NCBI RefSeq assembly: GCF_000877395.1
Contig: NZ_JYFE01000023.1
Span: forward strand, 1 to 64,000
Reading direction: 5' to 3'
Length of the DNA stretch: 64,000 bases
Source: Jannaschia aquimarina
GTDB lineage: Bacteria; Pseudomonadota; Alphaproteobacteria; Rhodobacterales; Rhodobacteraceae
Shown in pieces: positions 9,532 through 47,185 of the stretch (positions are counted from its first letter, which is position 1; each line of letters begins with the position of its first letter). The position numbers and the translations under genes are program-made. Below the pieces are notes generated by a model. The model saw nothing but the letters and a program-made list of their open reading frames with translations. It did not search any database and had not been told where the DNA came from.

Positions 9532-9861
9532 TCAGTCGACGGGGCGGATCAACTTGCGTTCGAGGACCCGCAGGACCTGTTGCAGATCGTGTCCGCGGCG
9601 CAGGATGCGGCCATCCATACCGATCACCGAATACTGACCTTGCCGTGCCGCCAGCTTGGGCCGTTTCTCGATCCGGTACATCGGCTGTTCGGCCGTCCGG
9701 CGGAACACGGAAAAGATCGCGACGTCCCTGAGCGCCGAGATCCCGTAGTCGCGCCATTCGCCCGCAGCCACCATCCGACCATAGAGACGAAGGATCGCGT
9801 TCAGTTCGGACCGCTGAAACTGGACCTGCTCGGGGGGGTGGATTGGCTGGTGGGCCGTCAT
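9532..9861 (-). CDS. DUF2794 family protein
   Basis: A 109-residue soluble protein matching the alphaproteobacterial DUF2794 family: FQRSELNAILRLYGRMVAAGEWRD near the N-terminus and ISALRDVAIFSVFRR in the middle, followed by the conserved YRIEKRPKL region. No function is established. ATG 9861 is chosen because the family starts shortly before the FxRxEL motif; longer in-frame versions run into the noncoding region upstream. It is a single-gene unit, reading away from the structured region at 9.9-10.4 kb. Confidence 0.85.
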   Translation of the reverse strand: MTAHQPIHPPEQVQFQRSELNAILRLYGRMVAAGEWRDYGISALRDVAIFSVFRRTAEQPMYRIEKRPKLAARQGQYSVIGMDGRILRRGHDLQQVLRVLERKLIRPVD

Positions 9862-9993
9862 CCGACGACAGTTACGCGAGCACGAGCGCATTTCAAGCGC
9901 TGCCATCGCCCTGCCACGAAATGATCCCCCCTGCGCCGCCATGAGTCCGTGGAATCGCCCGGCACCGGGGTCAGTGTCGTCCCTGCAGCAAGT

Positions 9994-10101
9994 CCTCGGC
10001 GGGTCGACAATCCTGCCCCCACCGTCGGCCCGCCGGGGCGCTGCATCTCTCTCAAGGATAAAGACCGACCCCGCCCCCCTCTGGCGGGGTCGACCCTTTT
10101 T
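9994..10101 (+). ncRNA. Candidate small RNA A: C-rich-loop hairpin plus terminator
   Basis: A 15-bp stem pairs 9994-10008 with 10024-10038, with two G-U type pairs. It closes on the 15-base loop AATCCTGCCCCCACC (10009-10023). About 28 bases later a 10-bp terminator hairpin (10066-10075 with 10083-10092) is followed by TTTTT at 10097-10101, which sets the plus strand as the transcribed one. The same loop occurs in candidate B with a different but equally paired stem, which argues for selection on the RNA fold. The 5' end is unknown and could lie near 9910-9960. The C-rich loop could pair with purine-rich ribosome binding sites (inference). Confidence 0.5.
10066..10101 (+). terminator. Intrinsic terminator of candidate RNA A
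   Basis: CGACCCCGCC (10066-10075) pairs perfectly with GGCGGGGTCG (10083-10092), 7-base loop CCCCTCT, followed closely by five T residues at 10097-10101. No protein gene on the plus strand precedes it within 1 kb apart from the converging units left of 9007, which supports an RNA gene upstream. Confidence 0.7.
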
Positions 10102-10225
10102 CGGCAAGCCGGTGACGGGTGTTACCTGTGCGTCAACCCTGCCACCGCGCCGCCACAAAAGTTTCCCGGGATCGCCCGGAACCCGGCGTGTCTCCGCCGA
10201 ATGGCACGGTCAGAAGGAACGTGTC

Positions 10226-10352
10226 GGAGCGGTTTCCGCTCCGGTCCCGGAAGAGGCGCCAATCCTGCCCCCACCAGGCGCCCTTCCGGGCCAAGTCTGC
10301 CCACGCGGCCGAGTTCCGCGTGACGGCCCCGCCGGAAAAGGCGGGGCCGTTT
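10226..10352 (+). ncRNA. Candidate small RNA B: second copy of the C-rich-loop hairpin
   Basis: The stem pairs 10246-10260 with 10277-10290: 14 base pairs with a single bulged A at 10254. The 16-base loop is AATCCTGCCCCCACCA (10261-10276), identical over 15 bases to the loop of candidate A. A short GGAGCGG/CCGCTCC hairpin (10226-10242) precedes it, a CACGCGG/CCGCGTG hairpin follows, and an 11-bp terminator-like hairpin (10323-10350) closes the unit. The boundaries are estimates; the true 5' end could be upstream, near 10138, where weak similarity with copy A (CCCTGCCAC, TCGCCCGG) begins. Confidence 0.45.
10323..10352. terminator. Terminator-like hairpin beyond ilvE and candidate RNA B
   Basis: ACGGCCCCGCC (10323-10333) pairs with GGCGGGGCCGT (10340-10350) around the loop GGAAAA; 11 perfect base pairs and a short T run (10350-10352) on plus. 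It can end candidate RNA B on plus and lies 30 bases beyond the ilvE stop on minus, so it may serve both directions. Confidence 0.55.
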
Positions 10353-10379
10353 GGATTCGGGCCGCAACCGCGTGATACG

Positions 10380-11249
10380 TCAGCTTCGAACGAGTGTCTC
10401 GTAGGATTGTGCGATATCGCGCGTGATCGCTCCGACTTCGAAGTTGTAGTCACCGATCTGGCCCACCGGCGTCACCTCGGCCGCGGTCCCGGTCAGCCAG
10501 CACTGCTCGAACCCTTCCAGCTCTTCGGGCATGATATGGCGCTCGTGGACCTTGATCTGGCGGTCCTTGAGCATGCCGATCACCGTCTGACGCGTGATCC
10601 CGTTCAGGAAGCAATCCGGGTCCGGTGTGTGCACTTCGCCGTCCTTGACGAAGAAGATGTTGGCGCCGGTCGCTTCGGCCACATAGCCGCGATAGTCGAA
10701 CATCATCGCGTCCGAGCATCCCTTCGCCTCGGCGGCGTGCTTGGACATCGTGCAGATCATGTAGAGACCGGCCGCCTTGGCCATGTGCGGCGCCGTTTCG
10801 GGAGACGGACGCTTCCACTTGGCGATATCCAGCTTGGCGCCCTTCATCTTGGCATCGCCGTAATAGTCGCCCCACGCCCAGGTCGCGACAGCCATCCGAA
10901 CCGGGTTCCGGGAGGAACTGACGCCCATATCCTCGCCAGCGCCCCGCCAGGCTAGCGCGCGCACATAGGCGTTCTCCAAGCCGTTGGCCTTGAGCGTCTC
11001 GTATTTGGCGGCCTCGATCTCATCGACCCTCCACGGGATTTCCATGTCGAGCGCGCGACCGCTCGCGATCAGGCGTTCGGAATGCTTGCGGCTCTCGAAG
11101 ATGGTGCCGTCATAGGCGCGCTCTCCTTCGAAGACGCTGGACGCGTAATGCATCGCATGGGTCAGCAGGTGCACGTTGGCCGACTGCCAGTCGACCAGCT
11201 TGCCATCCATCCAGATCTTGCCCGTCATTTCCGCATAGGAGCCCGCCAT
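10380..11249 (-). CDS. ilvE: Branched-chain amino acid aminotransferase
   Basis: A 289-residue class IV PLP aminotransferase that makes leucine, isoleucine and valine from their 2-oxoacids and glutamate. Recognisable parts are the N-terminal GKIWMDGKLVDW, HAMHYASSVFEGERAY, the PLP lysine in HMAKAAGLY, and EATGANIFF and WLTGTAAEVTPV of the cofactor-binding half. ATG 11249 is preferred because AAAGGA lies 8 bases before it; an ATG 21 bases upstream is also in frame. It is divergent from petP across 121 bases and a terminator-like hairpin lies beyond the stop. Confidence 0.95.
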   Translation of the reverse strand: MAGSYAEMTGKIWMDGKLVDWQSANVHLLTHAMHYASSVFEGERAYDGTIFESRKHSERLIASGRALDMEIPWRVDEIEAAKYETLKANGLENAYVRALAWRGAGEDMGVSSSRNPVRMAVATWAWGDYYGDAKMKGAKLDIAKWKRPSPETAPHMAKAAGLYMICTMSKHAAEAKGCSDAMMFDYRGYVAEATGANIFFVKDGEVHTPDPDCFLNGITRQTVIGMLKDRQIKVHERHIMPEELEGFEQCWLTGTAAEVTPVGQIGDYNFEVGAITRDIAQSYETLVRS

Positions 11250-11370
11250 CGCATCATCCTTTCCGATCATGTCCCCGGTCGGTCCGGTTCAGACATTTTA
11301 TTTCGTCAAATCTGTCTTCGCCTACGGATTCGGGCTTGGAATGTCAACAAGGCTGACTTAATTTGCTGCC

Positions 11371-44663: not shown

Positions 44664-45544
44664 CGGCGGGGGCCCAATGCGGAATGAAGTGAAAGAAGGG
44701 CGGCGCCCGCGGACTCGTCGGTGTGATGCGTCATGAACCGCCAGCCGGTTCTGGTGCAAAGCCCGTTCAGCGTGTCGCGCCGTTCAGCCAGCCGTGTGAG
44801 GTAGTCTTCGCGCAAACGGCTCGCCTTGAGCGTTTCGAACTGAATCGCGCCGGACATGCTTTGGAACACGGTGCGTCCATCGTAGGGGAAGGCCTCCTCT
44901 TCGGGGTCGAGGATCTGCAACAAAATCCCCTCGACCCCTCGGTCCGCGGCCGAAGTCAACGCGTCTACGAGTTTCTCCGGTGGCCCGAGGAAATCCGACA
45001 GGAAGACCGCGCGCGCCCCCCACGGCATCGTCTGGGGACGAGGTGTACCGTAATCGGACCGGTCTCCGTCCTGCATCAGTGAGTTCGCCATGGCCATCAA
45101 CTGTGCCCGCCCACCCTTCGGTGGCTCGGCCAGATTGGCGAGGCCCGCCCTCTCTCCGGCGCGGATCGCCAGTGTCGCGAGCGCGAGCGCCAGCGTCTGT
45201 GCCCGCCGCAGCTTCGAGGGACGATCACCGCCGGAGAACTGCATCGATGCGGCATCGTCGACCCAAATCGTAAGGGCCTGCGCCGCCTGCCACTCGGTTT
45301 CCCGGACGAAATGGGCATCGGTCCGGGCCGATTGGCGCCAGTCGATGGAGCGGCGCGGATCGCCAGGCTGTGCGGACCGGTACTGCCAGAACGCATCCCC
45401 GGGTCCGGCCCGTTTGCGGCCATGATGCCCCATCAGAACAGTCGCCGCCAACCGTTCGGCATGCAGAAGCAGCTGAGGAAGAGCGCTGGCTTCCGCTTCG
45501 GACCGGGCTCTCAGAGAGCCGGGGGTGTGGATGGCCGCATCCAA
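44660..45544 (-). CDS. DUF58 domain protein of the MoxR cluster
   Basis: A 294-residue soluble protein with the family signature PGDPRRSIDWRQSART (about 60-75) and a vWA-like strand IWVDDAASMQFSG (about 92-104). DUF58 proteins almost always sit beside MoxR ATPases and vWA/BatA proteins, as here. It lies 3 bases after the MoxR gene stop and overlaps the next gene by 4 bases. Confidence 0.9.
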   Translation of the reverse strand: MDAAIHTPGSLRARSEAEASALPQLLLHAERLAATVLMGHHGRKRAGPGDAFWQYRSAQPGDPRRSIDWRQSARTDAHFVRETEWQAAQALTIWVDDAASMQFSGGDRPSKLRRAQTLALALATLAIRAGERAGLANLAEPPKGGRAQLMAMANSLMQDGDRSDYGTPRPQTMPWGARAVFLSDFLGPPEKLVDALTSAADRGVEGILLQILDPEEEAFPYDGRTVFQSMSGAIQFETLKASRLREDYLTRLAERRDTLNGLCTRTGWRFMTHHTDESAGAALLSLHSALGPRR

Positions 45545-46615: not shown

Positions 46616-47185
46616 ATGTCGGATAACGGACGCGTGAGCACGTCGACGGATGGGCTGATCTCCGCCGCAAGGCAGGCCGCAAAGGAGGGGAAACGTGGCT
46701 CTCCCCCCGTCCACCTCTGGGACCCGCCCTATTGTGGAGAGATCGATATCGTCATCAAACGGGACGGAACCTGGTTCCACGAAGGGACACCTATAGGCCG
46801 ACCCGGCCTTGTGAACCTGTTCGCATCGATCCTGAAACGCGAAGGGGACAAGCACTACCTCGTCACGCCAGTCGAGAAGGTCGGAATCGAAGTCGAAGAC
46901 GCACCGTTCGTTGCGGTCGATTTCGAGACCGGGCCGAACGGAATTGCGTTCGTCACCAATGTCGATGATCGCGTCACCGCTGGTCCCGAGCATCCGATCC
47001 GCGTCGATCTGGCGCAGGATGGAGAGCCGTCACCCTATGTCGAGGTGCGCCGCGGCCTGGAGGCGCTCATCGACCGCAAGAGTTTCTATCGGCTCGTCGA
47101 GATCGGCGAAGAGCGCGATGGCGTCTTCGGACTAAGCTCCGGGGGCGCATTCTTCCCAATCATTGCGGCCACCGGACTCGATTGA
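46616..47185 (+). CDS. DUF1285 family protein
   Basis: A 189-residue soluble protein matching DUF1285: LWDPPYCGEIDIVIKRDGTWFHEGTPIGR in the N-terminal half, KHYLVTPVEKVGIEVEDAPF in the middle, and YVEVRRGLEALIDRKSFYRL near the C-terminus. No function is established. It is divergent from the MoxR gene with 66 bases between them, and the pairing of DUF1285 with MoxR clusters is common in alphaproteobacteria as far as I recall. Confidence 0.88.
   Translation: MSDNGRVSTSTDGLISAARQAAKEGKRGSPPVHLWDPPYCGEIDIVIKRDGTWFHEGTPIGRPGLVNLFASILKREGDKHYLVTPVEKVGIEVEDAPFVAVDFETGPNGIAFVTNVDDRVTAGPEHPIRVDLAQDGEPSPYVEVRRGLEALIDRKSFYRLVEIGEERDGVFGLSSGGAFFPIIAATGLD

Follow-up and report, generated by a model that had tools for sequence, protein, structure and literature searches.

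Organisation of the locus

Within the window, as we call the whole 64-kb stretch of Jannaschia aquimarina DNA analysed here, two hairpins lie in intergenic DNA flanked by a DUF2794 gene on one side and an ilvE-like gene on the other, both of which are encoded on the minus strand. The features of this locus, including those that we predict around the hairpins, are listed below, where P1 is an outer helix, P2 a small hairpin and P3 the long hairpin that carries the loop, and where R1 is a covariance model described in the next section.

9532 to 9861, minus strand: DUF2794 gene, the divergent neighbour (open reading frame; PF10984, E 4.3e-41; start codon chosen by us)
9900 to 9984, plus strand: putative promoter region belonging to copy 1 (all six phased positions hold C; a -10-like region follows)
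9984 to 10101, plus strand: small RNA gene copy 1, predicted transcript with predicted ends (R1 match, fold)
9984 to 10045, plus strand: outer helix P1 of copy 1, enclosing P3 (TGCAGC at 9984-9989 with GCTGCA at 10040-10045; folds, R1 alignment)
9994 to 10038, plus strand: hairpin P3 of copy 1, loop AATCCTGCCCCCACC at 10009-10023
10066 to 10101, plus strand: terminator-like hairpin of copy 1 (10-bp stem at 10066-10092, five T at 10097-10101; terminator scan)
10138 to 10222, plus strand: putative promoter region belonging to copy 2 (four of the six exact phased positions hold C)
10222 to 10352, plus strand: small RNA gene copy 2, predicted transcript with predicted ends (R1 match, fold)
10226 to 10242, plus strand: hairpin P2 of copy 2 (GGAGCGG TTT CCGCTCC; fold)
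10246 to 10290, plus strand: hairpin P3 of copy 2, loop AATCCTGCCCCCACC at 10261-10275
10323 to 10352, plus strand: terminator-like hairpin of copy 2 (11 bp, stem-loop at 10323-10350, TTT only; fold)
10380 to 11270, minus strand: ilvE-like class IV aminotransferase gene, the convergent neighbour (open reading frame; PF01063, E 1.6e-46)

The initial annotation had described two hairpins with an identical loop and differing stems of 15 and 14 base pairs, and both the sequence and the folds confirm this. Namely, the first hairpin pairs 15 bp around a 15-base loop (-30.6 kcal/mol, z -4.5 for the fold against shuffles), while the second, which starts 252 bases further on, forms 14 bp with one bulge (-27.5 kcal/mol, z -5.4) and carries the same 15-mer in a loop of which 16 bases are unpaired in the fold; in either case, none of the 200 shuffles matched the real fold. 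Allowing up to two mismatches, AATCCTGCCCCCACC occurs in the window only at these two loops (0.10 sites expected), and exact copies in the 4.1-Mb assembly of the organism itself likewise number two. Across the family, the exact 15-mer is present in 7 of 295 genomes including our own, each of the other six holding one; as these six show no comparable hairpin around it, the 15-mer was dropped as a family marker. In addition to the hairpins described initially, copy 1 exhibits the outer helix, copy 2 the small hairpin, and both are preceded by phased upstream arrays. In the folds, copy 1 has no P2 and copy 2 does not form P1. A terminator-like hairpin does follow each copy, as had been proposed, with five T after copy 1 and only TTT after copy 2, where the terminator scan did not report the hairpin at 10323-10350.

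Could the stretch simply encode a peptide in which ILPPP recurs? A plus-strand frame of 144 amino acids is open from 9941 to 10375 with both loops in one frame, and the spacing of the copies, 252 bases, is 84 times 3. What is conserved among relatives, however, are base pairs with compensatory changes together with the letters of the loop, and the lengths of the matches described below, 67 to 84 bases, do not change in steps of three, so that we regard a coding function as having practically no likelihood.

Homologues in the genus and in the family

Our genus set comprised 20 genomes including that of the organism itself, and ilvE was located in all 20. Direct DNA similarity in these genomes yielded, besides our own, only two short partial matches (in L010 and L011), the one in L010 being a terminator-like stretch and not the element. 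Reading the DUF2794-ilvE gap, on the other hand, revealed a homologous element in 18 of the 19 same-genus relatives, the exception (L031) having other sequence adjoining ilvE. The relatives' element consists of GTAG, a small hairpin (in many cases GAGC-GAAA-GCTC), a long stem rich in G and C, closed by a loop around GCCCCCACCC, and CTAC, followed as a rule by a further GC-rich hairpin. Two of the 18 elements, in L017 and L025, are degenerate, the loop of L025 reading GCCCCCATC.

From 16 of the 18 relatives, leaving out L017, L025 and the window itself, we built the covariance model R1. Searched against both strands of the window up to E 5, it returned two matches, both on the plus strand, and nothing else: copy 2 at 10219-10300 (29.1 bits, E 7.7e-4) and copy 1 at 9981-10047 (21.8 bits, E 0.022). 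Both scores lie below the 49.3 to 88.7 bits of the 16 training relatives. A second model, R2, was built from 54 matches with both window copies among them, and its scores for the window (35.8 bits for copy 1 and 35.6 bits for copy 2) are for this reason not independent.

The element is widespread in the family. R1 with strict filters at E 0.01 matched 229 of 394 family genomes (58%), missing our own, while R2 at E 0.1 matched 29 of 41 (71%). In a search of 385 genomes of the class, R2 matched only three, all of them from our own family, and again missed our own genome. Within the genus, R2 at E 0.5 matched 17 of the 20 genomes, namely our own and the same 16 relatives from which R1 had been trained; 15 of these relatives have one site and one has two, numbers that are lower bounds because copy 1 of the window escaped this search. 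The same happened in each of the whole-genome searches with R1 in our own genome and with R2 in the 41 family genomes and in the genus, in which copy 2 was reported and copy 1 was missed; with R1 at E 1, copy 2 was the single match in the whole genome. Furthermore, a pattern scan of named genomes gave at least 120 stretches, and R2 matches 111 of the 120 listed (92 of 100 and 19 of 20). Among these matched stretches are members of Roseovarius, Sulfitobacter, Ruegeria, Roseobacter, Octadecabacter, Phaeobacter, Rhodovulum, Pseudorhodobacter and Jannaschia, while the nine listed stretches that R2 does not match carry the titles of unrelated bacteria. Two contigs with foreign titles do carry the RNA, L076 (2927-3004, 65.5 bits; titled Enemella evansiae) and L110 (4306-4384, 61.1 bits; a Flavobacteriia MAG), and are probably mislabelled or contaminating. 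Judging by these searches, the RNA family appears to be confined to our own alphaproteobacterial family, Rhodobacteraceae according to most of the named records. Rfam 15 yields no match in the window at the gathering cut-off, and for the 18 relatives' loci at E 1 it yields one match to a microRNA model, located off the element and below that model's cut-off. The initial annotation had named, as an outcome that would speak against it, related genomes in which neither the loop nor the pairing is kept; in the searches and alignments made here, both are conserved.

Structure, covariation and the RNA strand

Does the conservation concern the fold or only the letters? In the alignment A3 (54 sequences), 94.6% of cells are paired and, in all but one of the 21 pairs, both partners vary; its covariation score of 0.533 exceeds all 500 shuffles (mean 0.184) as well as all slid controls (at most 0.126). 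In A4, which holds 99 sequences fetched by the loop pattern, 97.6% of the cells of the long stem, 83.3% of those of P1 and 50.5% of those of P2 are paired, 18 of 21 pairs have changes on both sides, and the score is 0.282, as compared to 0.188 for shuffled and at most 0.129 for slid alignments. It should be noted that the alignments A3 to A5 were fitted to the model, which favours the structure of the model. Since P2 has no support in A4, we consider P3 and P1 firm, and P2 and a three-way shape firm only for the DUF2794-ilvE type of locus defined below.

What is more, the long stem indicates the strand. G-U cells outnumber A-C cells by 64 to 5 in A3 and by 123 to 9 in A4, and, with duplicates removed, by 179 to 12 over 147 distinct rows; as an RNA from the opposite strand would predict the reverse, the RNA should lie on the plus strand. 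Finally, the loop GCCCCCACC is present in 168 of 168 distinct matches (leaving out L025 with its GCCCCCATC), a conservation that for L074 to L193 is partly due to selection, these having been fetched by a pattern that holds GCCCCCACCCAGT. Taken together, covariation, the excess of G-U pairs and conservation support the original proposal of two related plus-strand RNAs in which both loop and fold are under selection.

Genomic contexts

Pooling A3 to A5 gave 175 matches in 157 loci, all of which fall into two contexts, A and B, or into a fusion of the two. In type A (38 matches), the order is DUF2794, RNA, ilvE, with DUF2794 divergent upstream; in type B (131), a STAS protein, an anti-sigma-like kinase, ggt (gamma-glutamyltranspeptidase) or an acetyltransferase lies near the RNA; and in the fused type (6), the order is DUF2794, RNA, ggt. 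Seven of the 175 are repeats, namely the same element in both collections or near-identical genomes, leaving 168 distinct matches (36 A, 126 B and 6 fused). DUF2794 stands upstream on the opposite strand in all 36 distinct type A matches and convergent ilvE downstream in 22 of them. Of the 126 distinct type B matches, 108 have the kinase and 100 the STAS protein upstream on the same strand, and 107 have ggt downstream on the same strand. The domains of one example gene each are STAS, HATPase_c_2 and gamma-glutamyltranspeptidase. One can also ask how much of this depends on the way in which the loci were collected: 16 type A loci were fetched through ilvE, and without these and the window 150 distinct matches are left (18 A, 126 B and 6 fused), 36 of which (11 A, 19 B and 6 fused) come from model searches only. 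One weak second match, G312:C7:187319-187395 (L339; 33.6 bits, E 0.006), lies away from the usual locus.

A number of type B loci, among them L056, L049 and L053, have upstream of the RNA a STAS and anti-sigma kinase pair that resembles RbaV and RbaW of Rhodobacter capsulatus, a likeness that is one of domains and sizes. RbaV-RbaW is a partner-switching system that is reported to affect production of the gene transfer agent and viability in stationary phase (PMC3999984).

Two or three tandem copies, 180 to 257 bases apart, are found at 16 of the 157 loci, the other 141 holding one, and the pair in the window is hence an instance of a recurrent arrangement. By sequence, copy 2 looks like the orthologue of the relatives' single copy, because it keeps P2 in the place of their GAGC-GAAA-GCTC hairpin, and copy 1, which has no P2, like a diverged duplicate. 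As both share one loop unlike the usual one, they were probably duplicated after their loop had changed.

Strong GC-rich hairpins are common in intergenic DNA, and the one after copy 2 may also serve ilvE from the opposite side, so that one could suspect dispersed repeats, terminators or DNA elements, such as REP-like sequences or ends of mobile elements, devoid of any RNA function. Against this stand the few sites per genome (with the tandems possibly undercounted in the genus numbers above), the fixed synteny, the strand-specific G-U pairs and the conserved phased region upstream, and we therefore hold such an origin to be extremely unlikely. That the element is a real conserved RNA gene is, in our estimation from these comparisons, nearly certain.

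Upstream regions and terminator-like hairpins

When 162 distinct upstream regions are aligned by their P1, C stands at positions -26, -37, -48 and -59 with frequencies of 0.91, 0.85, 0.94 and 0.83, i.e. a phased array of C positions 11 bases apart that alternate with A-rich positions, followed at -13 to -8 by an element similar to CATAAC or CATACC. All four positions are C in 115 of 170 upstream regions (113 of 167 when counted by distinct element), as compared to 1% for phases shifted by 4 to 6 bases. In 36 type A regions, the array reaches -70 and -81. Counted from the P1 base at 9985, copy 1 has its phased C at all of -81, -70, -59, -48, -37 and -26. An array with an 11-nt phase points to a putative activator or to a promoter on curved DNA. 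Between 9800 and 10450, no site resembling a promoter emerged when we scanned for the sigma-70 consensus.

A weight matrix made from 168 upstream regions, with the window left out, ranked the copy 1 site third (13.6) and the copy 2 site fifth (10.7) in the window, both below the training mean of 20.7. Two unrelated sites on the plus strand, at 46702 and 17902, score above both copies, and one at 44976 scores above copy 2; those at 46702 and 17902 may be due to chance or belong to other genes of the same regulon.

Terminator-like hairpins, defined as a hairpin with at least four T, follow the element in 18 of 38 type A matches (1.4 expected by shuffling) and in three of six fused ones (0.4 expected), as opposed to 4 of 127 in type B (1.9 expected). 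In L050, at least six T follow both copies. Promoter-like and terminator-like signals of the kind expected for a separate small RNA gene are present in type A, while the terminator-like hairpins are mostly absent in type B. For the window, the terminator-like hairpin between the copies and the upstream array in front of each suggest that the two are separate RNAs.

The context of type B raises a further question, namely whether the element is a cis-acting leader of ggt, the copies between DUF2794 and ilvE being transposed relics or secondary uses. The same-strand ggt downstream, whose aligned start lies a median of 78 bases beyond the match (a value that still includes duplicates), and the small excess of terminators in type B would both fit such a role. 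In type A, however, the element leads no adjacent gene, DUF2794 always, and ilvE wherever it was noted, being on the opposite strand (with 16 of the loci in question fetched through ilvE), and terminator-like hairpins are seen at type A and fused loci. Moreover, when 124 regions of type B are lined up by the end of the element, the stretch between element and ggt has no conserved letters. We therefore judge a ggt leader to be quite unlikely, and that the RNA acts in trans rather than only as a leader in cis to be fairly probable.

Search for pairing targets of the loop

The initial annotation had suggested that the loop pairs with G-rich ribosome binding sites, for which our searches gave no support. 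The complement of the loop, GGTGGGGGC, occurs at 79 sites in our own genome, as compared to 85 for the backward control, i.e. without excess, and none of the 72 sites scanned passed the start-site filter, a filter used without a positive control. The seven sites left out were the two window loops, three on contig C74 and two at contig ends. A pair of complement sites on C74 that we had considered as an mraZ leader lies elsewhere, next to open reading frames that read as acyl-CoA synthetase-like and biotin carboxylase-like. Among the 22 least coding-like sites there was no clear start-site target. In the 20 genus genomes, a pattern followed by ATG was found 136 times as compared to 22 for the backward controls. 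We give this difference little weight, since it may reflect a bias between ATG and GTA, of which the former is probably the more frequent, and since part of it is the antisense of the RNA itself. A GGGGGC-GCCCCC-CACCCC repeat considered as a partner had two matches in 1.0 Mb. The loop may also resemble the 3' part of a tRNA, but no tRNA gene was found in the window. All in all, that the loop pairs mainly at ribosome binding sites appears doubtful.

Comparison with known RNAs

We take the cuckoo RNAs, alpha-r14 and the family RFM SmelA075 (with NfeR1 and RS0680a of Rhodobacter sphaeroides) to be one group, and RS0680a presumably to be the same as CcsR1-4. The cuckoo/alpha-r14 RNAs are described as trans-encoded alphaproteobacterial RNAs with two to four hairpins each, in which the same ultraconserved C-rich loop, CCUCCUCCC, an anti-Shine-Dalgarno motif, sits on strongly differing stems (PMC3927594, PMC10746234). 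The principle of an invariant C-rich loop on variable stems is the same here, and the likeness to C-rich-loop RNAs of Rhodobacter noted at the outset is an analogy. Nevertheless, the loops differ, CCUCCUCCC there and GCCCCCACC here (168 of 168), because of which we do not count our RNA as a member. Another difference is that here each element has one C-loop hairpin, to which P1 as an outer helix and, in one of the types, P2 are added.

StsR, formerly RSs0827, is a small RNA of similar size from the same bacterial family, being 72 nt long in R. sphaeroides, where it binds UpsM, the mraZ leader RNA (PMC8307010). Identity with StsR was rejected for the loop alone, GGTGGGGGC being found in none of the 16 genus mraZ leaders (330 bases each, from 18 loci), which are themselves C-rich. 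StsR is also characterised by an RpoHI/RpoHII-dependent promoter; at our RNA, a -10-like CATAAC/CATACC is seen. The genus mraZ loci (L194, L197-L207, L209-L211, L213) contain C runs, of which one similar to CCCC-AGGTG is found in 16 of 16 and one similar to CAGGCACCCCC in 13 of 16. In these C runs the mraZ loci resemble the loop of our RNA; UpsM, however, is the leader of the mraZ mRNA and sits at another locus.

The SAM/SAH riboswitch resembles our RNA in being a structured RNA of the same order; it is reported from Rhodobacterales only (PMC2864571). It differs in lying upstream of metK and in having an Rfam entry, RF01727. In the parts of the literature that were available, including small-RNA papers on related species (PMC4809877, PMC5107571, PMC8625941), nothing recognisable describes this RNA, which may stand unnamed in one of the published RNA-seq lists.

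A model of function

What, then, might the RNA do? As sequence comparison shows, the element combines covarying helices P1 and P3, joined in the DUF2794-ilvE type by the small hairpin P2, with an invariant GCCCCCACC loop, fixed synteny, a defined RNA strand, a conserved upstream region at a fixed distance and, in about half of the DUF2794-ilvE type, a terminator-like hairpin. Our preferred reading, to which we assign a probability of roughly 0.6, is that the window holds a small RNA specific to the family in two tandem copies, and that this RNA, which probably acts in trans, makes its contacts through the GCCCCCACC loop. Each copy would have a promoter of its own, with transcription beginning near P1 and ending at its hairpin terminator. 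The RNA would then act on other RNAs in trans, with P3 holding the C-rich loop open as a recognition surface. The letters of the stem would drift while the loop stays fixed, since the stem only has to pair, and it is this combination, along with the signals of its own in type A, that follows the logic of a trans-acting recognition loop.

Most likely, the loop would act as an antisense sequence and pair with target RNAs where these are rich in G. Alternatively, it could bind an RNA-binding protein that the RNA titrates or delivers, with no pairing to another RNA. A single-stranded motif that never varies, carried by a stem whose sequence is free to change, fits a protein site as well, and our target searches surfaced no complementary target. 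We know of no candidate protein, and for the nearest analogues, antisense pairing is what has been predicted for their C-rich loops (PMC10746234, PMC3927594). In our opinion, a pure protein site is unlikely, and base pairing is the somewhat favoured mode of action over protein binding.

A more specific scheme, which we consider very unlikely, would make the RNA a decoy in a circuit of cell division and stationary phase in Rhodobacteraceae. In this scheme, the loop would imitate the C runs of UpsM and compete for its G-rich partner RNA, thereby tying the neighbouring STAS/anti-sigma switch of the RbaV-RbaW type to the division genes.

If the reading of a family-specific small RNA is true, a group of bacteria that is abundant in the sea would have in it a core regulator, carried by 58% to 71% of the family genomes searched and with no entry in Rfam 15. 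The RNA would be fixed either beside DUF2794 and ilvE or beside a partner-switching pair similar to RbaVW together with ggt, and the invariance of its loop would make target capture and mutational tests simple.
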